A stretch of DNA of 31,583 bases from a virus: the IMG/VR virus record IMGVR_UViG_3300041809_000718, positions 1 to 31,583 of that record; one strand, given 5' to 3'. The notes beneath the pieces were generated by a model, which did no database searches, was not told where the DNA came from, and saw only the letters and a list, made by a program, of their open reading frames with translations. Position numbers and translations under genes: made by a program. Position 1 is the stretch's first letter. Every line of letters begins with the position of its first letter. Shown here piece by piece: positions 970-29,703 of this stretch.

Positions 970-1833
970 TTAGCGGCTCGAAGTGTCGATAATCAGTTCG
1001 TCGTTCTCTTCAGGACTTTTTTCAGAAGGTTCTTCCTGCGCCTCTGGATGAGTTTCCTTGAATGTGTCAGGATTAACCATCCGAATAGCATCACTGATAA
1101 CTAAAGGAACTTTTTTCAGAATCTTCAGAACTTCTTCTGTTGTTGACATCTGACGAAGAGAAGACAAATCAAGCATCTTCAAGGCTTTTTGCGCATCAGT
1201 TAAGGGACTCTTTGGAGGGAGCGGGACAGTTTCGTATTCAGTTGTGATACCTGAACCAGTTTTAGTCGTCGAAAGCCAATATCCATTTTCAGGATCAGAA
1301 GGGCTGCCCCAACTGGCATTTCTCCCAAAACCATTAAGAGCTTTCCAAATGCCTTCTCCAACTGTCAAACGAAAAACTTTACCAATTTGTCCTTCGACTA
1401 TAATGCAAAGATCATGTCCCATCTTCGCTTTGAAATCATTGATGAACTTCTCTCGGAAAGCTTTTGCCTCAGGATGATCTTTGTTCTTGTCCCACTTCGT
1501 TTCTTTCAATTCGGAATATTGTTTCCAACGATAGGCGATTGCGGAACAAAGTAAACAATCCACTCCTGGCAAATGATAGACTGGAACTTTTTTGATTGTC
1601 ATAGCAGAAGTAACAACAGGAACCCAATGAGATTCGAAATTAAACCATGGATATGGTTGAGCAGGTAAGATTCTCCATTTAGTTTCGCCTTCTGGAAAAG
1701 TAAAATCGAAAATAGACTTTCCAGAAGAAGGACGATCACTATCATTATCGGTATTCAACCAAGGATTATTCTTAAGACGTTCATCGTTCAGATCTGGACG
1801 GGCTTCGTTCTTTTCGTGATTTTGCGGATGCAT
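970..1833 (-). CDS. Single-stranded DNA-binding protein, T4 gp32-like
   Basis: A 287-residue protein that fits the phage gp32-type SSB plan: a short N-terminal tail, then WRILPAQ (residues 53-59) opening the OB-fold core, a His at 69 and the C-L-L-C pair at 93/96 that could form part of a zinc site, a later core segment WLSTTKTGSGITTEYE, and an acidic C-terminal tail (QEEPSEKSPEENDE) of the kind that recruits replication partners. The role would be coating single strands during replication and recombination. The start chosen is the ATG at 1833, with GGAG six bases upstream; a GTG at 1917 would add 28 poorly protein-like residues and abuts its Shine-Dalgarno. The N-terminus carries NNPWL, also found near the N-terminus of the primase-helicase. 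Confidence 0.75.
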   Translation of the reverse strand: MHPQNHEKNEARPDLNDERLKNNPWLNTDNDSDRPSSGKSIFDFTFPEGETKWRILPAQPYPWFNFESHWVPVVTSAMTIKKVPVYHLPGVDCLLCSAIAYRWKQYSELKETKWDKNKDHPEAKAFREKFINDFKAKMGHDLCIIVEGQIGKVFRLTVGEGIWKALNGFGRNASWGSPSDPENGYWLSTTKTGSGITTEYETVPLPPKSPLTDAQKALKMLDLSSLRQMSTTEEVLKILKKVPLVISDAIRMVNPDTFKETHPEAQEEPSEKSPEENDELIIDTSSR

Positions 1834-1903
1834 GATAAACTCCATTGTTAGATTGTGATTGGCTTTAATGTCTAATGACTTAATGCCATGATGAAAATAG
1901 CCT

Positions 1904-2197
1904 TCACATTGTGGCACCTCCTATATCTGGTAAATTTTTCCAATTTTCATATTCCTGCTTAGTGTCTGTTGTAAGATATTTACCACGATCTGTTTCTTCG
2001 TATTCTAATTGACGTCGTGCCCATAATGGTTGTTCAGGCCACTTGTCTTTACTTAGTTTTTCATGATAACCATGTTGTTCATTTAAGATACGATCATTGA
2101 CAATCATGACTTTTTGATCTGATTGTTGTTCGGAGAAGTTTTTCTTATCTCCTCTCATTTTTATTGCAACTCGATATGCTTTATTTAATGCTAACAT
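1904..2197 (-). CDS. Hypothetical protein between primase-helicase and SSB
   Basis: A 97-residue charged protein that I do not recognise. The start chosen is the ATG at 2197 (MLALNKAYRV), preceded by AAAGGGG at good spacing; an upstream alternative adds a hydrophobic stretch inside the intergenic gap. It is rich in Lys, Glu and Gln, with no membrane segment, and has an aromatic-basic patch (WPEQPLWARRQLEYEE). Its stop (ATGTGA) and an AGGAGG sequence fall just upstream of the SSB reading frame, so the two genes are likely on one message. Its location between two replication genes suggests an accessory replication role. Confidence 0.6.
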   Translation of the reverse strand: MLALNKAYRVAIKMRGDKKNFSEQQSDQKVMIVNDRILNEQHGYHEKLSKDKWPEQPLWARRQLEYEETDRGKYLTTDTKQEYENWKNLPDIGGATM

Positions 2198-2257: not shown

Positions 2258-4762
2258 TTATGTTTGTGATGGTGATGGCATATCAATCATCTTCTCAACG
2301 CCAGTTTTTCTTTTCAATTTTTCAAGATAAGAAATATTAGTTGCCCCTCGATATGGTTTGATACCAACTTTTTTTAGAAGTTCTGAGAAAGCCTTTGGAG
2401 TAATATCATATTCTTCTTCTTCTTGTTTACAGAAAGCAACCCATTCTTCTCTAACTTCTTTTTGCTTAACATCTTGACGGGTAACATCTGCAATATTAAC
2501 AAAATTTTTGTGAAGCCATCCAGCAAAAGGGTTTTCTTCATCATAATATTGTTGAGTTGCCTTCTTGACACAATCAGGTTCGATAAAACCATGCTGTTGG
2601 AAGTCTTTCCAACCTTGAATCGCTAAATATAAAAAACCTGCATTAGCGTTTAGCAATTCTTTTTCCAGTTCAACTCGATCCCGTCTTTTTGGATGTCCAA
2701 TTGGAAAATAAGCATTGAATGGGATTAACTTTAACTTAGTCCAAATCGCTTCGGAAGAAGAAGGAATTTTCAATTTTTCATTACCATAAATAAAGAGCTT
2801 ATGTGTTTGTCTAAAGTCTTGAGGTTTTTCGTAAAGATCTCTGGCTGTGATTGTATCTCCTCCAACCATATCTTTTATAGTTTTGATCGATAATTGCTTT
2901 TGCTCAATTTCAGTTCCAACAGAAAATCTAATTCCCTTCAAATAAATGAATTGGCTGGCTTGATTCCCATCACTTTGCTTTTTCGTATCCATAATCAAAT
3001 CTGAACTAATCTTCTTAAAGTAATCTCCAAAACATTTTCCAATTGCTTCCAAAAGAGCGCTCTTAGCGTTGTCTCCCTTTTTACCATGACATAAGTAAAT
3101 ACATTTATTATCGGTGTATCCTGATAAACAATATCCAATAATCTGCCAGAACCAACGGATAAGGTCTTCATCTGGAGTTCCATCCTCTTTCACTAAAATC
3201 TGATGAAGCATATCATCCCAAACTTTTATGATTTTAGGGTCAGGATTCTTTTGATAGATGCAATTCATGGCTTTCTTGTTGTAAAAATTGGGATCAGAAT
3301 CAGAAAATTTGTTCTCATTCAAATCATAAACGCCATTCATTAGGGCAATGTGAGAAAGACTTTGATCAAAACAATCGGCTGTGATTGAAATTCCTGGCAA
3401 AGATTGGAAAACCTTCAAAACTTGTTCCCTGGGTCCATGATTCTTAAGTTTCTCAGTTGCTTTAATGACAAATTTAGATTTGAATTTATTGTTTAACTTA
3501 TCAAAAGCCTCATCAGCCATTGGATTTAATTTTTTAGTATGATCTCGAGCCCATTTATATCCATTCCAAATTCGATAATCTTTTTCTGTTTGATCATACC
3601 GAACTTCCTGCCCATAGCATTGGGAGAGCCATTTTGCATACCATAAATCATTGGGTTCAAAGGAATCTCCAACAAAGTATTTAATGGAAGTCATGAATTT
3701 CAGAACTTTTTCCTTTGTCCACCCTTCGGCTTGAGCATCTGCTAAATCCCATCCAGAAGGAAATTTAGCAGAATTTAAAATAACAACTTGAACTCCGCCA
3801 AGAAGTTCGGCAATATTTTCCGCTGCTTTCATTCCTGCTTCATCATTATCTGGCCAAATGATAATTCTGGCAATGGGTTTCTTATAACGATGAATAGTCT
3901 TTTTAATTAAACCATCCTTATTGACTTTTTCATCTTCATATGAAAAGGTTTCAAGTAAATCGTTCCAATCAGATTTTTTGATTGCCATTGCGCCATTACA
4001 CCATGACATAACTTGACAGGTATCTCCTAAAAGTTGTTGGGCAGCATCACAAGTCTTCTCACCTTCAACAATAAGAATAAACTGTTCTGGTTTTAAAGAT
4101 TTCAACTTCTCAATTCCATAAAGAGGGCGAAGAACATTCGTGACACCCTTCCAAGCCCAATGGTCAATTTCATTTTCATAGTGACCATAACTTAAAGGCC
4201 AAAGCGTTTTTTGCTTCTGTTGAGTGATAGGATCAATGAAATCTTTTCTTATAATATAGAAAGCTAACTGTCCCTCTTTAGTAAAATATGAATATTTTGT
4301 GGTCTTGACATCAGATTTAGACTCGAGTGAGAAAGGGATATTAGAAATAGCTTCTTTGGGAACTGGAATCACTGCCGTCCAAACTGGTGCTGGTTGAGTC
4401 TGCTGAGCTATTTTTTTAGATTGGTAAATTGCTTGTTTTTGAGGATTAGAAAGAAATTCTTCAATTTTCTTCTTAGCCTCATCATATGAAATTCCTAAAG
4501 CATACTCTACATAAGTAATGGGACCAAGCCCTCCTTTATTAAAAGAAAAATCCGCCCATTTGTTAGTATTGATGTTGTATTTAAAAGCACCAATGTGGTT
4601 ATCAGAACGATTAGGACATAAAGCATCCCATTCAAAATCTACTAATTCTCCATCAGGACAAAAGTATTGAACAATGTCTTGGGCTCGACTTAAAATATCA
4701 TCGTTGGAGAAATTTATCTCGTTCGATAACCACGGGTTGTTAAGCTTTCTTTTCAGTGCCAT
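2258..4762 (-). CDS. Primase-helicase (TOPRIM plus D5/SF3-like ATPase)
   Basis: An 834-residue replication protein. Region 1 (about residues 30-105) looks like a primase-type zinc ribbon that has lost most of its cysteines: ALCPNRSDNH, then NKWADFSFNKGG. Region 2 is a TOPRIM domain with the glutamate motif IVEGEKT (about 232-237) and the WPDNDEAG motif (about 303-310). Region 3 is a D5-type N-terminal segment followed by a superfamily-3-like ATPase with Walker A GKKGDNAKS (about 560-568), then VGTEIEQKQL and the conserved GGDTITARDLYEKP...KLFIYGNEKL section. It should unwind the fork and probably prime it. The ATG at 4762, with TTTGGA upstream, is preferred to a TTG four codons earlier. It lies directly downstream of the iteron region, as expected for an initiator beside its origin. 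Confidence 0.85.
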   Translation of the reverse strand: MALKRKLNNPWLSNEINFSNDDILSRAQDIVQYFCPDGELVDFEWDALCPNRSDNHIGAFKYNINTNKWADFSFNKGGLGPITYVEYALGISYDEAKKKIEEFLSNPQKQAIYQSKKIAQQTQPAPVWTAVIPVPKEAISNIPFSLESKSDVKTTKYSYFTKEGQLAFYIIRKDFIDPITQQKQKTLWPLSYGHYENEIDHWAWKGVTNVLRPLYGIEKLKSLKPEQFILIVEGEKTCDAAQQLLGDTCQVMSWCNGAMAIKKSDWNDLLETFSYEDEKVNKDGLIKKTIHRYKKPIARIIIWPDNDEAGMKAAENIAELLGGVQVVILNSAKFPSGWDLADAQAEGWTKEKVLKFMTSIKYFVGDSFEPNDLWYAKWLSQCYGQEVRYDQTEKDYRIWNGYKWARDHTKKLNPMADEAFDKLNNKFKSKFVIKATEKLKNHGPREQVLKVFQSLPGISITADCFDQSLSHIALMNGVYDLNENKFSDSDPNFYNKKAMNCIYQKNPDPKIIKVWDDMLHQILVKEDGTPDEDLIRWFWQIIGYCLSGYTDNKCIYLCHGKKGDNAKSALLEAIGKCFGDYFKKISSDLIMDTKKQSDGNQASQFIYLKGIRFSVGTEIEQKQLSIKTIKDMVGGDTITARDLYEKPQDFRQTHKLFIYGNEKLKIPSSSEAIWTKLKLIPFNAYFPIGHPKRRDRVELEKELLNANAGFLYLAIQGWKDFQQHGFIEPDCVKKATQQYYDEENPFAGWLHKNFVNIADVTRQDVKQKEVREEWVAFCKQEEEEYDITPKAFSELLKKVGIKPYRGATNISYLEKLKRKTGVEKMIDMPSPSQT

Positions 4763-4891
4763 TTTATTTTCCAAACTTTGTTAAATACTTGTTAAATGTT
4801 TTGAACAACAGTTACCGTTACCTATGCTTTTATAATTATTTTTATATATAAAATAAAATATTTTTTTTTTTAGTAAAGTAATTTTAAGGTA

Positions 4892-4897
4892 ATTATA
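4892..4897 (-). promoter_or_regulatory. Possible -10 box upstream of primase-helicase
   Basis: On the minus strand 4897-4892 read TATAAT, a perfect -10 hexamer pointing towards the primase-helicase gene. No good -35 hexamer lies 16-18 bases upstream, so it would need an activator or be weak. It overlaps the iteron at 4895-4903, so a protein bound there would block it. Confidence 0.4.
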
Positions 4898-4949
4898 GGT
4901 AACTGTTGTTAACCGCCCCTAATAAATCAATAACTTAGTTGTTAACTGT

Positions 4950-4982
4950 ATAGGTAACAAATAGGTAACTTATAGGTAACAC
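4950..4982 (+). repeat. Three tandem 11-bp iterons
   Basis: ATAGGTAACAA, ATAGGTAACTT and ATAGGTAACAC stand head to tail at 4950-4960, 4961-4971 and 4972-4982. The 11-bp period is about one helical turn, so a protein bound at each copy would sit on the same face of the DNA. The 9-base core is identical in all three and only the last two bases vary. Confidence 0.92.
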
Positions 4983-5060
4983 TTTGATCGGTCTGCCCAA
5001 AAATGTTAACCAATATATATGGATAAAATTTAGCTGAGAATTTATAGGTAACATTTCTCA

Positions 5061-5339
5061 TCAAAATTCTCTCAATTCTTTCGTTTCGAGTTTTATAGGT
5101 AACTGTTCATTTCCTGCAGCCTTTTCCTGTTCATTCTTCAGCCAAGTATAACGTTGAAGATATAGGTCTAAGGCTTCGTCAATCACTCGATAAAATGTCT
5201 TACCTGTCTTCTCGTAAAGATCACAAAGCTTTTCCCAAGAACTTTGATGAATAAGAATTGAACGCTTCCTTCGTTCACCCAAAACAGGATCAAAACGTTC
5301 TCGACGATATTGCCGTCTTGCTTTATAGTTTTCTTCCAT
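5061..5339 (-). CDS. Probable ribbon-helix-helix DNA-binding protein
   Basis: A 92-residue basic protein. After an Arg-rich start (YKARRQYRRERF), residues about 23-31 (RRKRSILIH) fit the beta strand and residues about 33-64 the two helices of a ribbon-helix-helix fold (SSWEKLCDLYEKTGKTFYRV, then IDEALDLYLQ). Such proteins bind short direct repeats as dimers, in line with plasmid copy-number and phage Arc-type regulators. The start at 5339 has a strong GGAAGG upstream. The gene is directly upstream of the iteron region, and one iteron lies within its own 3' end, so I infer that it binds these repeats and regulates itself, the primase-helicase or origin firing. The fold call is from pattern only. 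Confidence 0.6.
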   Translation of the reverse strand: MEENYKARRQYRRERFDPVLGERRKRSILIHQSSWEKLCDLYEKTGKTFYRVIDEALDLYLQRYTWLKNEQEKAAGNEQLPIKLETKELREF

Positions 5340-5376: not shown

Positions 5377-5604
5377 TTAATTTTGTTCTTTTTCTTTCAA
5401 AATATTTTCATTCCGGCTTTTCAGCCCCTTCCTTTGTTTCTCTTTTTGCATCCGCATCCCTCTAATCAATCTAAGGGCATATGCCATTATTTGATCGACG
5501 TCGTTCATTCTTCCTCCCTTATTTCCAGCCATATAACCTAACGCATAAACCCTCAGCCATTCGCTATTAGCTCGTCTTTTTGCTTCAATTTCTTTCTTTG
5601 ACAT
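5377..5604 (-). CDS. Small basic hypothetical protein
   Basis: A 75-residue, strongly basic protein of unknown function (KKEIEAKRRANSEWL near the start, KEKQRKGLKSRN near the end). The ATG at 5604 has CAGGAG at ideal distance. Its first 52 bases overlap the 3' end of the sigma-like gene in another frame. A Gly-rich turn, GYMAGNKGGRMND, sits between two predicted helices. The charge suggests nucleic-acid binding. It is co-directional with the sigma-like gene and the RHH gene and probably shares their message. Confidence 0.6.
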   Translation of the reverse strand: MSKKEIEAKRRANSEWLRVYALGYMAGNKGGRMNDVDQIMAYALRLIRGMRMQKEKQRKGLKSRNENILKEKEQN

Positions 5605-6242
5605 ATAATACTCCTGTATTGTGGATTATTGAAATTGGAATAACGTTTGATCTTCATAAACACTTCATAATATGGACTTTTGAATTCACGTAATAGTTTA
5701 ATAGCACTTTTTACACGATAACGAACCATTTCTTGTGACACTTTCTTACCAAAAAAAGTACAATATTCTTTCAAATTTGCATAAATACAAGGATTATGGA
5801 AATACGTCAATAGTAAGTCCTTAAACATTGCCATAGTCGTTTTTCGATAATTTCTCACTTTAACTTTTGAACAACGATCTAGGTCTTTCTCTAGTTCTGC
5901 CAAGTCAATAGTATTCAAATAATACCACATTTTAAGTCGTCTTAATGCTTGTTGTTCAACATAATGAACAACTTCTTGAGTCATTCCCATAAGTCTAGCA
6001 ATCTCTTTTTGATTACGTAATAATGCGTATCTATAGTTCAATACTTCTTGATCAACTTGAGGAAGTTTATGTAAAAATGTATATAAATGCTCCATACCTT
6101 TCATTTCTTCACGTTCTTCATTATAATGAAAAGAATCATTAAGCAGGACGTCCATCAATTGTGGGTCTCTAGGAACTAGTTCAATTCGATTCAAACGACT
6201 AGGCGCCACAGTTCCTCGTCGAGTCCTTGAATTAACCTTCAT
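5553..6242 (-). CDS. Sigma-70 region-4-like transcription regulator
   Basis: A 229-residue protein. Residues about 57-105 match a sigma-70 region 4 helix-turn-helix: LHKLPQVDQEVLNYRY, then NQKEIARLMGMTQEVV and ALRRLK. A second, weaker helix-turn-helix is visible at about 155-187 (FGKKVSQEMVRYRVKSAIKL). There is no recognisable region 2, so it is not a complete sigma factor; it may bind -35 elements alone or act with host polymerase. The start at 6242 has AGGAGC upstream. It is the first gene of the leftward cluster and lies back-to-back with the late operon across 6243-6458, so I infer that it controls late transcription, early transcription or both. Confidence 0.65.
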   Translation of the reverse strand: MKVNSRTRRGTVAPSRLNRIELVPRDPQLMDVLLNDSFHYNEEREEMKGMEHLYTFLHKLPQVDQEVLNYRYALLRNQKEIARLMGMTQEVVHYVEQQALRRLKMWYYLNTIDLAELEKDLDRCSKVKVRNYRKTTMAMFKDLLLTYFHNPCIYANLKEYCTFFGKKVSQEMVRYRVKSAIKLLREFKSPYYEVFMKIKRYSNFNNPQYRSIICQRKKLKQKDELIANG

Positions 6243-6824: not shown

Positions 6825-8239
6825 AAATCGACCTTCGAATTCCAAAAGCTTATAAAGAACTTCTTACTGAACATCATCGTTACTATTGTTATTATGGCGG
6901 ACGTGGAGCAGCAAGGAGCTGGACTTGTGCAAGATATCTGATTTATCGTTCATTACAATCTAAAGTTCGTATTGCTTGTTTTAGAGAATTTCAACGATCA
7001 ATCAAAGAATCCATTCATCGTCTTCTATCAGATCAAATCGAGCTTCTAGGACTAACTAAGTATTTTGAAATTACTGATAATTCAATTGTTTGTTTGACGA
7101 ATGGCTCAAATTTTCTATTTGAAGGTCTTCATGCAAACGTCAACAAGATCAAGAGCTTAGAAGGCATCGACATTGCAGATATTGAAGAAGCCGAGTCAGT
7201 CTCAGAAGATAGTTGGCAAATATTACTTCCTACAGTTCGTAAAGAAAATTCACAGATCCTGATTCGATTCAATACGAAATATGAAGACGATCCAACATAC
7301 ACGCGTTTTGTTAAATCACCTCCTGCAGATTGTTGGACTAAATTAACTTCTTGGGAAGACAATCCTTATTTCCCAGAAGTTCTTAAGAAAGAAAAAGACC
7401 AAGATTACGCATTCAGACCTCATGAAGCCAAGAACATCTGGGGTGGACAACCGATTGGCGTAGGTAGATTAGTTTGGCCAGATTTCAAATACGATGTTCA
7501 TGTCAAAGATTTTGATTGGAACATCGTCAAACAAACTGGCAATTTTTTCATGGCCATGGATCCAGCTTCCCACTATTACCCAGCTTGTATTTGGTTGGCT
7601 TTATTTCAGAAACCAGGCACAAAAGATCTGATCAAGTGGATTTATGCTGAATATCCGACATACAATGATCTTGGAGATTATTTCCACAAACTTCGATCTA
7701 AACTATTATATACTGGTTCATTACAAGATTTAGCTCGAGAAATTCAAGCTAAAGACGGACAAGAAATTAAGATCACAAAACGTATGATTGATACTCGATT
7801 TGCAAAAGGCAGTGGATCAGCAAGCTATGTAAACGATTCTCAAGGAATTGTTTCTGAAATGGCCAAACGTGAGAACGGCGGTTTGATATTCACAAGTCCA
7901 GCTGAAGTCACAATCGATACGATGCGATCAAGGATCACAACAGATTTACAATACAATGTTCTTCAACCGATCAACAGTTTCAATTATCCTAAACTTTACG
8001 TCGCTCCGTGGTGCAAGAACGTCATTGAATCCTTAAAGAACCACAGATTGCAAGAACAGTCAGAAACTGAAGACGCTCGATACAAAGATATGTCAGACGC
8101 AATAAGGATTTGTTACGCAGGAATGGATAACCACCGTTATAAGTCACCAGGTGACCAAGGACAACCTAGAACATCATCAATGGATAAATCATTCAATTGG
8201 AATAATACTAATGCTGGCGTTGGCTGGATGTCAGCATAA
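6821..8239 (+). CDS. Terminase large subunit
   Basis: A 472-residue packaging motor. Walker A is the deviant GGRGAARSW (about residues 26-34), Walker B is IDIADIEEAE (about 116-125) with the catalytic Glu, and the coupling segment is ILIRFNTK (about 146-153), matching the Terminase_3/PBSX-like ATPase. The nuclease domain begins at about 240 with the metal-binding Asp in FFMAMDPAS (Asp 247); a late acidic motif, YKDMSDAIR, fits the last nuclease Asp. The protein translocates DNA into the prohead at the portal and cuts it. It is coupled to the small subunit by a 4-base overlap. Length is close to the family norm and no key residue looks lost. Confidence 0.93.
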   Translation: MKIDLRIPKAYKELLTEHHRYYCYYGGRGAARSWTCARYLIYRSLQSKVRIACFREFQRSIKESIHRLLSDQIELLGLTKYFEITDNSIVCLTNGSNFLFEGLHANVNKIKSLEGIDIADIEEAESVSEDSWQILLPTVRKENSQILIRFNTKYEDDPTYTRFVKSPPADCWTKLTSWEDNPYFPEVLKKEKDQDYAFRPHEAKNIWGGQPIGVGRLVWPDFKYDVHVKDFDWNIVKQTGNFFMAMDPASHYYPACIWLALFQKPGTKDLIKWIYAEYPTYNDLGDYFHKLRSKLLYTGSLQDLAREIQAKDGQEIKITKRMIDTRFAKGSGSASYVNDSQGIVSEMAKRENGGLIFTSPAEVTIDTMRSRITTDLQYNVLQPINSFNYPKLYVAPWCKNVIESLKNHRLQEQSETEDARYKDMSDAIRICYAGMDNHRYKSPGDQGQPRTSSMDKSFNWNNTNAGVGWMSA

Positions 8240-8271
8240 CCAATTTCACAATCTTAACAAAAGTTACCAAA

Positions 8272-8463
8272 ATGCCTTTCAAATCTGAAGCTCAACGCGC
8301 CTATTTATTTATCCATGAACCAGCTGTGGCGAAGGAATTCGCCGCTCATACACAAAAAGGCAAGAAACTTCCTTATCATGTTTCAGATAAACATGGGCAT
8401 GGATTTAGTTCTAAGGGCATGAAAGAATACGTCAATAAACGTTCTGAAGAGAAACGTAAGTAG
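8272..8463 (+). CDS. Small conserved phage protein (MPFKS family)
   Basis: A 63-residue basic protein beginning MPFKSEAQRAYLFIHEPAVA, a start seen in many phage genomes next to terminase or portal genes; the family usually follows the form MPFKS-x-A-Q...P-x-(I/V)-A-x-x-F...T...K-x-L-P-x-(K/H)-V, all present here. Its function is unknown to me; the location suggests a minor virion or assembly factor. There is no clear Shine-Dalgarno before the ATG, but the family start is unambiguous. Confidence 0.75.
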   Translation: MPFKSEAQRAYLFIHEPAVAKEFAAHTQKGKKLPYHVSDKHGHGFSSKGMKEYVNKRSEEKRK

Positions 8464-8472
8464 GAGGAACAA

Positions 8473-8922
8473 ATGCAAGAAGCTTATAGCACACCTGGAA
8501 TGAAGACGTTCGTCCAAAAACGAATGGAAACTTCGCCTGCATTGAAAGGTCCGAACGCCGCCCCAGGTAATACAATGTCGATTAAAACATTGCCTGTTCA
8601 AGAACATCTTCAAGCAGCTAGCGATCATATGTCTGCTGCAAGAATGGTTCAAGATCATGATCACGAATCAGCTGCAGATCATCTTCAGAAAGCAGCTATT
8701 CATAATATGGCTGCCGGTCAACATTTCGAAACTCATTCTAAAATGTGGATTCAGAAAGCCGTCGCTCATGCACATGGACAGTTTGCAGCTAAAGCTAAAG
8801 CCGCTCATAAATCAACAGCTGGCTTTGCTTCTAAAGTTTTAGCCAAAGGATCGAAAGCTTCTACACATACTAAGAAACAAGCCAGTCTAGCAAAAACATT
8901 AGCAAAAGTACGTCCACATTAA
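8473..8922 (+). CDS. Ala/His-rich basic protein, unknown
   Basis: A 149-residue protein behind a strong TAGGAGGAACAA ribosome binding site. The central part is rich in His, Ala and Gln (EHLQAASDHMSAARM, DHDHESAADHLQKAAIHNMA) in a heptad-like helical pattern. The C-terminal third is strongly basic and Ala-rich (FAAKAKAAHKSTAG, KVLAKGSKASTHTKKQ). I do not recognise a family. A long helical body with a Lys/Ala tail suggests a DNA-binding or scaffold-like virion component. It lies between the terminase and portal genes. Confidence 0.65.
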   Translation: MQEAYSTPGMKTFVQKRMETSPALKGPNAAPGNTMSIKTLPVQEHLQAASDHMSAARMVQDHDHESAADHLQKAAIHNMAAGQHFETHSKMWIQKAVAHAHGQFAAKAKAAHKSTAGFASKVLAKGSKASTHTKKQASLAKTLAKVRPH

Positions 8923-12234: not shown

Positions 12235-13473
12235 ATGGCTAATACACTTCTGTCCCCAACTGCGATTACGCGTGAATTCTTGATGATTCTTCACGCAAAC
12301 TTGACTTTTACGAAGACTATTAATAGACAGTACAACTCAGACTTCGCGAACTCCGGCGCGACAATGTCCGGTAAGATCGGTCCTAGCTTGAGGGTTAGAA
12401 AGCCTAACCGTTATCAGGTTCGTACTGGTGCAGCGATTCAGGTTCAAGACACAACTGAAGATTACGTAACTGTTAACTGTACAACGCAAAAAGGCGTTGA
12501 CATGCGGTTCAGTTCCGCCGATCTCACATTGACAATCGACGACTTCTCCGACAGGTACATCAAGCCGGCTGCTTTGCTTCTGGCTTCTACGATCGACGCT
12601 GATGGTCTTGCACTGAACAACAACGTGTATAACTGGGTTGGTGCTCCTGCTTACGATCTTGGTGATGCTACAAACAACAAATCGCCTGGCGTATTCTTGA
12701 ATGCCGGCGCTCAGTTGTCGATTTATAACACGCCGCTTGATGAACGAGCCATTGTACTTAGTCCTTACGCCCAGGCTACATCGGTTGCAGGTTTGAGCGG
12801 CTTGTACAATCCTCAGGATTTGATCTCCGAACAGTACCACAAAGGTGAAATGGGAAATTCGTTAGGATTTGATTTCCACATGGACCAGAATGTTCAGAGA
12901 CATACTTGTGGAACTCGTGTTGCTACTGGTGAAACAACTGTCTATACTGCTAACCAGTCCGGCAATCAGCTTGTTTGTTCAAATGCCACAACGCATACTT
13001 TCGCAGTTGGTGACCTGTTCTACGTTACTTCAGGAACTGCGGTCAACACAGTCAACCCTGAAACGAAACAGGACACAGGCGTAGCTCAGACTTTCGTTGT
13101 TACTGCTGCTACCGCTGCTGCTGGTGGATATGTGACATTGAACATCAGTCCTTCGATCATTTTGACTGGCGCAACGCAGACTGTTACAGCTTCTCCTGAT
13201 GCAGGCGCTCAGTTAACATTTGTTGGAGCTGCTTCTTCGACCTACACAACTAATATGGCTCATCACAAAGACGCTTTCACACTCGTGACTGCGGACTTGG
13301 TTATGCCGAAAGGCGTCGATTTTGCAGCTCGTGAAGTGTATGATGGCATTTCTTGTAGGATCATCCGTCAGTACGATATCAATAACGACAACCTCCCTTG
13401 TCGTATTGATGTTCTGTATGGTTGGACAACGATCAGACCTGAAGTTGCTACTTTGATTCTGTCCGATAAGTAA
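12235..13473 (+). CDS. Major coat protein, P22 gp5-like
   Basis: A 412-residue HK97-fold coat protein of the P22 type (P22 gp5 is about 430). Recognisable segments are the N-terminal ITREFLMILHANLTFTKTIN, NRYQVRTGAAIQVQDTTED, the long-helix part IKPAALLLASTIDADGLAL, and the C-terminal DINNDNLPCRIDVLYGW. A Thr/Ala-rich inserted region (TFAVGDLFYVTSGTAVN and onwards) likely corresponds to the surface-exposed domain. Codons are more G/C-ending than in neighbouring genes, which fits high expression. GAAAGGAATGG precedes the ATG. A strong terminator follows. Confidence 0.9.
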   Translation: MANTLLSPTAITREFLMILHANLTFTKTINRQYNSDFANSGATMSGKIGPSLRVRKPNRYQVRTGAAIQVQDTTEDYVTVNCTTQKGVDMRFSSADLTLTIDDFSDRYIKPAALLLASTIDADGLALNNNVYNWVGAPAYDLGDATNNKSPGVFLNAGAQLSIYNTPLDERAIVLSPYAQATSVAGLSGLYNPQDLISEQYHKGEMGNSLGFDFHMDQNVQRHTCGTRVATGETTVYTANQSGNQLVCSNATTHTFAVGDLFYVTSGTAVNTVNPETKQDTGVAQTFVVTAATAAAGGYVTLNISPSIILTGATQTVTASPDAGAQLTFVGAASSTYTTNMAHHKDAFTLVTADLVMPKGVDFAAREVYDGISCRIIRQYDINNDNLPCRIDVLYGWTTIRPEVATLILSDK

Positions 13474-26346: not shown

Positions 26347-29300
26347 ATGCTTCTATTACAAGAAAACACAATTATTGGTGGAATAGCAGCAAATGCAGCG
26401 CCACTAGCAGGACCATTTGGTTCTAATTACGATTTTGGTTTTAGTCCACTTTATATGGACGACGGATCTTCAACACCGTCAACGATCATCGTCACGATTT
26501 CAGGCATTGAAGTTAACAATGCTGACAACTCAGAAGTGTTGAAAACTTTGTTTCAAGGGCCTCTGCCTGCTACTCTAGATGCGCTATATACAGTTCCTTC
26601 TGGCAAAACGCACACTGTTCGTTCAATTAACGTTGTCAATGCTGGCGGATATGCTTCAGGAATCGCTTTGTATTTTGGTGGCTTAAATCCAAATAATATG
26701 TGGACAGCCGCTTTTAATATGCAAGCAAATACGTGGGCAACGTATGAAGACGATGGTTGGCAGTTCTATGACTCAAATGGAAATATTCTGACAGTTGGTA
26801 ATCAAGGTATTGCTGGACAGACTGGAATTCAAGGTCAAACAGGCGTTCAAGGTATTCAAGGCATTCAAGGAAATCTTGGACAAACTGGCTTCGGTGTTCA
26901 AGGGCAGACAGGTGTTGCAGGCGTTCAGGGAATTACAGGACCAGGCGCTGGACAACAAGGCGGAACAGGTATTCAAGGGCAGACTGGACTTCAAGGTCCT
27001 GGTGTTGGTATTCAAGGCGTCACTGGAGTTCAAGGTCAAACAGGAACTGCAGGTATTCAAGGCAAAACTGGTATTCAAGGTTTTACAGGTTCTCATGGCG
27101 CCAACTTCATTGATAGTACAACATATCCAGCTGACGGAACTTATGTAAAACCAGAATTTTTATGGAATAGAACTGACGAAGCTGTCTTTATTGGTGCTAC
27201 TGGAATTGATAGTTGGGTTCAACTGGGTGCTGGTTCACAAGGTGTCACAGGCTTTGCTGGTCAAACTGGTGTTCAAGGACAGACAGGATTTGGTCTACAA
27301 GGTGGAACTGGCGTTCAAGGACAAACTGGTGTTAAAGGTAATACAGGTTTTCAAGGCCAGACTGGCGTTCAAGGACAAACTGGCATTCAAGGACAAACCG
27401 GTGTTCAAGGCGTTACTGGATTTCAAGGTCAAACTGGTTTACAAGGACAGACAGGCGTCCAAGGACAAACAGGTTTACAACCAGCTACTGGTATCCAGGG
27501 TATAACAGGATTTCAAGGACAAACTGGACTACAAGGACAACAGGGACAAACCGGTGTTCAGGGCCAAACAGGATTTCATGGCGCTACAGGTTTTCAAGGA
27601 CAAACTGGCGTTCAGGGACAAACTGGCGTTCAAGGACAGACTGGACTTCAAGGACAGACAGGAAATATTGGAACGACGGGCTTCCAAGGACAAACTGGTT
27701 TACAAGGTCAAACTGGAGTTCAAGGACAAACAGGTTTACAACCGGCAACTGGTATCCAGGGCGTAACAGGATTTCAAGGACAGACAGGCGTCCAAGGCCA
27801 AACTGGTTTACAAGGTCAAACCGGTGTTCAAGGTGTTACTGGTTTACAACCAGCAACTGGTGTTCAAGGCCAGACTGGATTACAAGGGCAGACTGGTGTT
27901 CAAGGCCAAACAGGACTACAAGGCCAAACCGGTAATATTGGAACTACAGGTTTCCAAGGTCAGACTGGTGTTCAGGGTCAAACTGGTGTTGCCGGCGTTA
28001 CAGGATTTCAAGGACAGACTGGTTTACAAGGACAGACAGGTTCCCAAGGTCAGACTGGCGTTCAAGGACAAACTGGTATTCAAGGACTACCTGCATCACC
28101 GGGCAATAGTTCTGAAGGCGAGCTATATGCCGCAGGCGGTACATTAGCTGTTTCAGGGACACCTGCCCTAATGGGTTCGACTGTTACTTGGGTTTCTGGA
28201 TTTAACACAGGATTTACAACAGACACAACGAATGGTAAATTGATCAGCAACGTCGGAACTGCTAATTACCAGATGTTGGCTGAAGTTGATTGTTCAGGAA
28301 TTTCTAATGGAACTTTTGATATTCAGATGTATAAGAATGGCGTGGCAATTACTGACCATATTGCCAGCGTTCACGCGCCTTCTGGTGATGGTGATTGGGT
28401 CGTTACATTGACAGGCGTTGATTCACTCAACAATGGTGATTATTTACAACTTTATATTACTTGCACATCGGGCACAGGAACCTTAACAATTGACCATGTG
28501 AATTTCAATGCAACAGCTTTGCAAGGTGCAGTTGGGCAGACAGGTTCTCAAGGAATTACAGGAATTCAAGGTCAAACTGGTTCGCAGGGCCAGACTGGTG
28601 TTGCAGGTTTCACAGGATTCCAAGGACAGACTGGCTTCCAAGGTCAAACTGGTATTCAAGGACAGACTGGTTTACAACCAGCAACTGGAATTCAAGGACA
28701 AACTGGTGTTCCAGGCGTTACAGGCTTTCAAGGACAAACTGGTGTTCAAGGCCAAACGGGATTCCAAGGTCAAACTGGTTTACAACCAGCAACTGGAATT
28801 CAAGGACAAACTGGTGTTCCAGGCGTTACAGGCTTTCAAGGTCAAACAGGATTTCATGGAGCAACTGGTTTCCAAGGTCAAACTGGTTTACAACCAGCTA
28901 CTGGAATTCAAGGTCAAACTGGCGTTGCAGGAAACACAGGCGTTCAAGGCGTAACTGGTTTCCAGGGCGTCACAGGACTTCGTGGTTTGACTGGTTTCCA
29001 AGGTCAAACTGGTTTTGGACTTGGATACACTGGACTTCAAGGTTACACTGGGATTCAGGGTGTTACAGGAATTCAAGGTCAAACGGGTATCCAAGGAACT
29101 GCTTCTAGTTTGTTAGGAATTCAAACTTTTACTTATGGCAACACTTCATATACACCAACTTCTGGTTGTACTAAAGCAATTATTGAAATGTGGGGTGCTG
29201 GTGCTGGTGGCGGAGGAGGTGGTTATACTAACCAAGGTGGTGGTGGTTCAGGCGGATATGCGTTATATTTATTCACTTCTGTTGGAGCAGGTCCATACAC

Positions 29301-29703
29301 AATAGCAATTGGGCAAGGTGGTGGAGCTACAACTAATGGTGGAAATACGACGTTCAATACGGGTTTAACAACTATCACAGCTTATGGTGGTAGCGCAGGA
29401 GCTTCTTCAAATGGTTATCTTGTTTATGGAGGAGGACCAGGCGGAGCAGTTTCAACAAATGGAACTATCAATGGCGCAGGAATGAATGGTTTTGACGGAA
29501 TGACTATTTCTACTACTTATCGTGGCGGAGACGGAGGTTCTACAAGTTTAGGCGGTGGTGGAATTGGTGGAGTAGGTCAATCAAGTTCAGGAAATGGCTC
29601 AAATGGAGTAGCTAATACTGGATCAGGTGGTGGTGGTGGTTGTGGTGGTGGAAATGCAGGCAGTGGAGCTAATGGTTTTATGAGTATTAGGGAATATAAA
29701 TAA
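26347..29703 (+). CDS. Long collagen-like fibre with adhesin tip
   Basis: A 1118-residue modular fibre. Residues 1-50 carry FGSNYDFGFSPLYMDDG, shared with the gp4-like protein. About 50-150 is a beta domain. Collagen block 1 spans about 154-248, then an insert containing TTYPADGTYVKPEFLWN (about 249-297), block 2 (about 298-581), a beta-sandwich-like domain about 582-725 (LAVSGTPALMGSTVTWVSGF), block 3 (about 726-917), and a Gly-rich tip (about 920-1118, MWGAGAGGGGGG onwards). Blocks are built of GQTG(V/L/I/F)Q hexamers, so Thr is often in the Y position, as in bacterial collagens that lack hydroxyproline. It should be a trimeric triple-helical fibre, probably receptor-binding. AAGGAAAC precedes the ATG. 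Confidence 0.85.
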   Translation: MLLLQENTIIGGIAANAAPLAGPFGSNYDFGFSPLYMDDGSSTPSTIIVTISGIEVNNADNSEVLKTLFQGPLPATLDALYTVPSGKTHTVRSINVVNAGGYASGIALYFGGLNPNNMWTAAFNMQANTWATYEDDGWQFYDSNGNILTVGNQGIAGQTGIQGQTGVQGIQGIQGNLGQTGFGVQGQTGVAGVQGITGPGAGQQGGTGIQGQTGLQGPGVGIQGVTGVQGQTGTAGIQGKTGIQGFTGSHGANFIDSTTYPADGTYVKPEFLWNRTDEAVFIGATGIDSWVQLGAGSQGVTGFAGQTGVQGQTGFGLQGGTGVQGQTGVKGNTGFQGQTGVQGQTGIQGQTGVQGVTGFQGQTGLQGQTGVQGQTGLQPATGIQGITGFQGQTGLQGQQGQTGVQGQTGFHGATGFQGQTGVQGQTGVQGQTGLQGQTGNIGTTGFQGQTGLQGQTGVQGQTGLQPATGIQGVTGFQGQTGVQGQTGLQGQTGVQGVTGLQPATGVQGQTGLQGQTGVQGQTGLQGQTGNIGTTGFQGQTGVQGQTGVAGVTGFQGQTGLQGQTGSQGQTGVQGQTGIQGLPASPGNSSEGELYAAGGTLAVSGTPALMGSTVTWVSGFNTGFTTDTTNGKLISNVGTANYQMLAEVDCSGISNGTFDIQMYKNGVAITDHIASVHAPSGDGDWVVTLTGVDSLNNGDYLQLYITCTSGTGTLTIDHVNFNATALQGAVGQTGSQGITGIQGQTGSQGQTGVAGFTGFQGQTGFQGQTGIQGQTGLQPATGIQGQTGVPGVTGFQGQTGVQGQTGFQGQTGLQPATGIQGQTGVPGVTGFQGQTGFHGATGFQGQTGLQPATGIQGQTGVAGNTGVQGVTGFQGVTGLRGLTGFQGQTGFGLGYTGLQGYTGIQGVTGIQGQTGIQGTASSLLGIQTFTYGNTSYTPTSGCTKAIIEMWGAGAGGGGGGYTNQGGGGSGGYALYLFTSVGAGPYTIAIGQGGGATTNGGNTTFNTGLTTITAYGGSAGASSNGYLVYGGGPGGAVSTNGTINGAGMNGFDGMTISTTYRGGDGGSTSLGGGGIGGVGQSSSGNGSNGVANTGSGGGGGCGGGNAGSGANGFMSIREYK
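26797..29097 (+). repeat. 18-bp collagen-coding repeats in three blocks
   Basis: The 18-bp unit encodes GQTG(V/L/I/F)Q and recurs through three blocks (about 26797-27090, 27235-28090, 28523-29097). The peptide is nearly constant while synonymous bases differ between copies (caa/cag, act/aca/acc/acg, gga/ggt/ggc). A larger 108-bp periodicity is visible in the spacing of the PAT interruptions at 27742/27850 and 28678/28786/28894. Confidence 0.9.

Follow-up and report, generated by a model that had tools for sequence, protein, structure and literature searches.

Repeat array and A/T element

This locus raises the question of whether a cluster of short repeats lying next to a primase-helicase gene is a phage replication origin and, if so, which of the neighbouring proteins would recognise it. 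Analysis of the window, i.e., the whole 31,583-bp virus record, revealed seven exact copies of ATAGGTAAC within 287 bp (4817-5103), six direct and one inverted, conforming with the seven full copies and a half site in about 290 bases given in the preliminary description. The frequency of the 9-mer elsewhere had been set beforehand as the refuting test; the rest of the record was found to contain no exact copy and one match with a single mismatch, at 13466. The elements of the segment are:

4779-5009, plus strand: second repeat TGTTAA, five same-direction copies (4779, 4790, 4907, 4940, 5004)
4811-4816, minus strand: half site (GTTACC / GGTAAC), abutting the inverted iteron 4817-4825
4817-4825, minus strand: inverted iteron ATAGGTAAC, on the primase side of the A/T element
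4828-4872: pure A/T run of 45 nt, candidate DNA-unwinding element, with iterons on both sides
4895-4903, plus strand: iteron ATAGGTAAC, sharing its 11-bp register with the tandem trio
4950-4980, plus strand: three tandem iterons ATAGGTAAC (starts 4950, 4961, 4972), spaced at exactly 11 bp
5044-5052, plus strand: iteron ATAGGTAAC, immediately 3' of the stop codon of the ribbon-helix-helix (RHH) gene
5095-5103, plus strand: iteron ATAGGTAAC, within the RHH coding sequence, at its 3' end

The array is confined to one place and lies far above chance. In shuffled versions of 4775-5104, any non-A/T 9-mer reached at most three copies and mostly one, and no comparable clustering of another 9-mer was detected in the record outside the collagen-like gene. 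The tandem trio at 11 bp noticed earlier was confirmed, and the iteron at 4895, preceded at a distance of 10 bp by a degenerate AAGGTAAT, was found to lie 55 bp (5 × 11) ahead of 4950, which places four copies (4895/4950/4961/4972) in one 11-bp register. The copies at 4817, 5044 and 5095 are out of this register, so that the 'helical phasing' ascribed to the array holds for four of the seven. Among the TGTTAA copies, two are 11 bp and two 33 bp apart; elsewhere in the record, this hexamer does not exceed two same-strand copies per 240 bp.

The nearly pure A/T stretch reported at 4826-4880 was traced to the 45-nt run, which is free of G and C; the second-longest pure A/T run in the record measures 16 nt. 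A nearest-neighbour model ranks the 50-mer starting at 4828 below all others of the record in stability (z = 4.5). A search for DnaA boxes showed TTATCCACA to be absent from 4775-5110, and Rfam families and tRNAs gave no matches. Cumulative GC skew, which had been proposed as a check, has a broad minimum near 13 kb and leaves 4811-5103 unmarked. It is uninformative because skew follows gene direction, which switches at ~6.3 kb; it was rejected as an origin marker and neither supports nor refutes an origin at the array.

Gene neighbourhood and the RHH protein

The genes on the array side of the directional switch, which are read leftward, comprise:

970-1917, minus strand: SSB-like gene, member of the same leftward replication block
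2258-4774, minus strand: primase-helicase (Toprim 233-326, D5_N 380-526, DUF5906, TIGR01613 primase_Cterm), proposed initiator
5061-5339, minus strand: RHH-like protein of 92 aa with a weak RHH_3 match, proposed regulator of the primase operon or alternative iteron binder
5553-6242, leftward: sigma-70 region-4 protein gene, early block, upstream of the RHH gene

In leftward order, the sigma-70 region-4 gene is followed by an ORF of unknown function, the RHH gene, the array, the primase-helicase gene, a small ORF and the SSB-like gene. The array adjoins both the RHH and the primase-helicase gene, as had been described, except that its last copy is not intergenic and lies within the RHH gene (5061-5339), at its 3' end. 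The sigma-70 region-4 protein is a possible phage transcription switch. The rightward genes are P22-like and include small and large terminase, portal (PF16510, 4e-159), scaffold and coat; the terminase genes lie 1.4 kb from the array in opposite orientation. In the tail region, 26347-29703 encodes a collagen-like protein of 1118 aa with many GQTG triplet repeats.

Direct repeats are bound by RHH proteins of the CopG, ParG and MatP type, and tandem spacing of 11 bp suits RHH arrays. The array might thus be an operator at which the RHH protein represses a primase promoter located in the A/T element, or a centromere/partition site. The RHH-like gene abuts the array, the A/T-rich DNA immediately upstream of the primase is promoter-like, and a copy-number repressor gene, orf56, likewise precedes the primase-helicase gene of pRN1 (PMC4234260). 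We nevertheless regard this explanation as unlikely. The RHH_3 match is weak and below the cutoff (E = 0.027; 14.9 bits versus 21.6), and the single-sequence structure model of the protein bears a weak resemblance to MatP, CopG and ParG. The array extends over 287 bp and would be unable to control the RHH promoter, since it lies at the 3' end of that gene with one copy inside it. As to a partition site, the proteins scanned included none recognisable as ParA-like. Moreover, in the relatives surveyed below, iterons track the primase-helicase gene.

Primase-helicase and its predicted C-terminal domain

By domain content, the product of 2258-4774 is a primase-helicase of the P4-alpha type, with Toprim, D5_N and SF3 helicase domains and a winged helix predicted at the C-terminus. 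Profile matches were obtained to PF01751 (Toprim, 1.8e-9), PF08706 (D5_N, 1.5e-12) and the P4-family phage/plasmid primase model TIGR01613 (158.5 bits, cutoff 108.7), while the DUF5906 match fell slightly under its cutoff. ATG 4762, with GGAA upstream, has a better ribosome-binding site than TTG 4774 and is more likely the true start. In the P-loop of the SF3 domain (2995-3100), alignment revealed GDNAKS versus GxNGKS in relatives, with Ala replacing the usual Gly before Lys.

The last 104 residues (~735-838) were modelled together with 37 aligned relatives, and AlphaFold returned a winged-helix topology with a pLDDT of 74. The RFX DNA-binding domain was the top PDB match of the model (probability 0.99, although with E = 0.07), and the C-terminus of AsfvPrimPol came second; searching the PDB with the domain sequence yielded no match of value. 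The modelling supports the predicted fold, short of proof. A primase search of bacterial genomes found nothing, and the primase profile built from nine divergent members was too diverse for searching.

Proteins of this class are known to act on repeats. P4 alpha contains a Toprim primase and uses a winged helix to bind the P4 origin repeats, upon which unwinding and priming take place (PMC4234260). The C-terminal domain of SaPI Rep recognises iterons adjoining its own gene, and residues 400-538 of the D5-type helicase Cch2 bind its direct repeats (PMC7581432).

Iteron arrays beside primase-helicase genes

Among the reference phages and plasmids with a P4-family primase that were inspected first, arrays were found to adjoin several of the genes, e.g., seven copies of TGTGACGG directly after the primase gene of Lactobacillus phage CL2 and seven copies of GGGTTACT in a Bacillus plasmid. 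The first survey counted as an array any 8-mer present in four copies or more in the 400 bp 3' of the gene. By this definition, 14 of the 16 non-redundant Firmicutes loci with P4-family primases had an array, versus 1 of 1077 other windows (Fisher p ~5e-29, a rough guide rather than a strict probability, as the windows overlap). The iteron words differ among relatives, and in nearly all comparisons the protein has diverged most in its C-terminal domain.

A second survey of P22-portal relatives carrying a different primase-helicase, of the Toprim/AAA_25 type, showed at least five iterons at the 3' end of the gene in 6 of 11 loci, or 5 of 10 when L052 and L054 are counted as the one lineage that they represent; 14 of 1818 other windows contained at least four copies. 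Dense arrays of differing words lie 3' of the Toprim/AAA_25 gene in L052/L054 (TGTACCGA, 12 copies), L056 (AAACCGTA, five copies), L071 (ACGGGACA, seven copies), L046 and L058. The main structural difference is position, the array being 5' of the primase-helicase gene here versus 3' in the surveyed loci.

The Toprim-D5 group, which is nearest in primase sequence (80 loci, L128-L207, mostly one high-GC lineage), is mostly devoid of an array immediately beside the gene. In about 10 of the 80 loci (L133, L142, L147, L150, L151, L161, L166, L178, L183 and L196), TGC[A/G]AAC(C) repeats were found in four to six copies ~1.4-1.6 kb downstream of the primase; these could be an origin or another site.

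Occurrence of the 9-mer in other viruses

Scanning IMG/VR for ATAGGTAACNNATAGGTAAC returned 22 contigs, which by inspection fall into ~11 families. In L017, L021 and L029, pairs of ATAGGTAAC at 11 bp coincide with the 3' end of a tyrosine integrase gene or lie close to it, and in L014 such a pair is found at the 5' end of a tyrosine integrase gene; these pairs are probably integrase arm sites. The 9-mer is thus not diagnostic of an origin by itself and integrase sites are a real rival explanation, because the same 11-bp pairs adjoin tyrosine integrases. The array would then consist of arm-type sites (attP) or excisionase sites, with the integrase encoded beyond a contig that may be incomplete; some excisionases bind direct repeats one helical turn apart (PMC7498355). 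Against this, matches to PF00589 (tyrosine integrase) are absent from the 31.6-kb record, the array lies within the replication block, 4.8 kb or more from whichever contig end is nearer, and its copies are found on both sides of the least stable DNA in the record, a feature for which attP has no need. The same word also occurs beside a helicase gene in L030. Taken together, we consider integrase or excisionase sites very improbable here.

In L030, 13 copies of ATAGGTAAC come after a gene for a VapE-like helicase (PF05272, 8.5e-46), on either side of an A/T-rich core, and L217, a 58% relative of L030, has the same layout with a different word. The L030 helicase and the primase-helicase of the window showed no significant similarity, C-terminus included, and sharing of the word is therefore no proof of shared specificity.

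A tandem TATAGGTAACTTATAGGTAACTTATAGGTTAC is conserved across L010, L011, L012, L015, L016, L019, L022, L024, L026, L028 and L031. In the members examined (L010, L016, L022), it lies upstream of a small gene that resembles a terminase small subunit by inspection only, without a Pfam match, and L018 and L025 contain a pair of the 9-mer near terminase genes. These placements, along with the sigma-70 region-4 protein encoded at 5553-6242, would be compatible with another regulatory site, i.e., one that switches transcription from one early block to another or is related to packaging. The terminase genes of the present phage are 1.4 kb off and face the other direction, and iterons combined with an A/T element fit an origin better; a regulatory array of this kind appears the most remote of the explanations considered.

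Proposed origin and comparison with known systems

The segment comprises a clustered word at a single place, an adjacent A/T element and an adjacent gene for a candidate initiator, as is characteristic of iteron origins. We conclude that ~4811-5103 is probably the replication origin (replicator) of the phage, with the neighbouring primase-helicase as initiator. An origin, as suggested in the preliminary description, is well supported by the anatomy of the segment, the class of the neighbouring protein and the comparative surveys. Two points of that description need qualification. The RHH protein, which had been put forward for footprinting along with the primase-helicase, is the less likely binder in view of its weak RHH_3 match; the primase-helicase is the likelier one, and the RHH protein is likely a regulator. 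Plasmid-like phage replication is neither implied nor needed, since such iteron origins are commonplace among phages and satellites that encode P4-type primase-helicases.

We infer the identity of the binding protein, melting, priming and initiation from the observed repeats, A/T element, gene order, domain content, predicted winged helix and recurrence of iterons beside primase-helicase genes. The primase-helicase (2258-4774, minus strand) would act as initiator, as in satellite phage P4 and the SaPIs. By analogy with these systems, its predicted C-terminal winged helix would bind the ATAGGTAAC iterons flanking the 45-nt A/T element, and the protein would assemble at the array as a hexamer or two. 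Its SF3 helicase would melt the A/T run and then unwind the DNA, primers would be synthesised by the Toprim domain, and the phage SSB-like protein (970-1917) would coat the single strands. Primase expression is probably tuned by the RHH protein, which is encoded just upstream in the same direction.

Among known systems, P4 alpha and its origin likewise combine a Toprim-type primase, an SF3 helicase and a C-terminal winged helix (predicted in the present case) in one protein with short-repeat binding sites (PMC4234260); the repeat word differs, and the present virus is a full tailed phage with P22-like structural genes. SaPI Rep and SCCmec Cch2, which are D5 or Primase_Cterm helicases, also have iterons directly beside the helicase gene, and specific DNA binding resides in their C-terminal domain (PMC7581432), as is proposed by analogy here too. 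In contrast, their origins are 3' of the gene, whereas the array is 5' here, and their primase is of another type or a separate protein instead of a Toprim domain. The P4-family loci resembling that of Lactobacillus phage CL2 share an iteron array (7× TGTGACGG) abutting the primase-helicase gene; they differ in having it 3' of the gene, with other words and in two inverted clusters.

Plasmid pRN1 (orf56/orf904) has the same succession of a copy-control repressor gene and a gene for a primase-SF3 helicase with a C-terminal winged helix, but its origin is a large stem-loop and not iterons. A stem-loop origin of this type was rejected for the present segment, which folds no better than shuffled sequences (z = -1.36, not significant). 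Classical iteron plasmids resemble the locus in their direct repeats and A/T element; unlike in those plasmids, no plasmid-type Rep was recognised here, and the helicase itself is the initiator candidate. Most likely, the locus represents a known type of origin, with its own DNA word, in a new P22-like phage.

More tentatively, and with considerable doubt on our part, the word recognised by the initiator might diverge fast together with the C-terminal domain across phages while the placement of iterons next to the helicase gene is retained. In that case, the window and the unrelated L030 would have converged on an identical 9-mer, and a code linking winged helix and iteron might be readable from sequence pairs. 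The natural pairs of iteron and C-terminal domain collected here could allow such a recognition code to be tested. For an uncultivated P22-like podovirus lineage carrying a P4-type replication protein, a precise and testable origin is provided, and the surveys suggest an origin-finding rule for uncultivated phages, namely a fast-changing iteron array against a primase-helicase gene.

Near-identical contig and genome end

In the search for the same 9-mer in related phages, another check proposed at the outset, the sole close relative found was a near-identical contig (99.93% over the 14.9 kb compared), which contains the identical array; all 10 differences fall at 7456-8738, and the contig thus provides no independent conservation of the array. 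This 1.3-kb stretch, comprising the end of terL and the following ORFs, looks like a recombined or hypervariable patch.

No terminal repeat was detected in the window. The near-identical contig, IMGVR_UViG_3300017988_000034, terminates no more than one base away from window position 1, and the coinciding contig ends may reflect a real genome end or an assembly break caused by a repeat.
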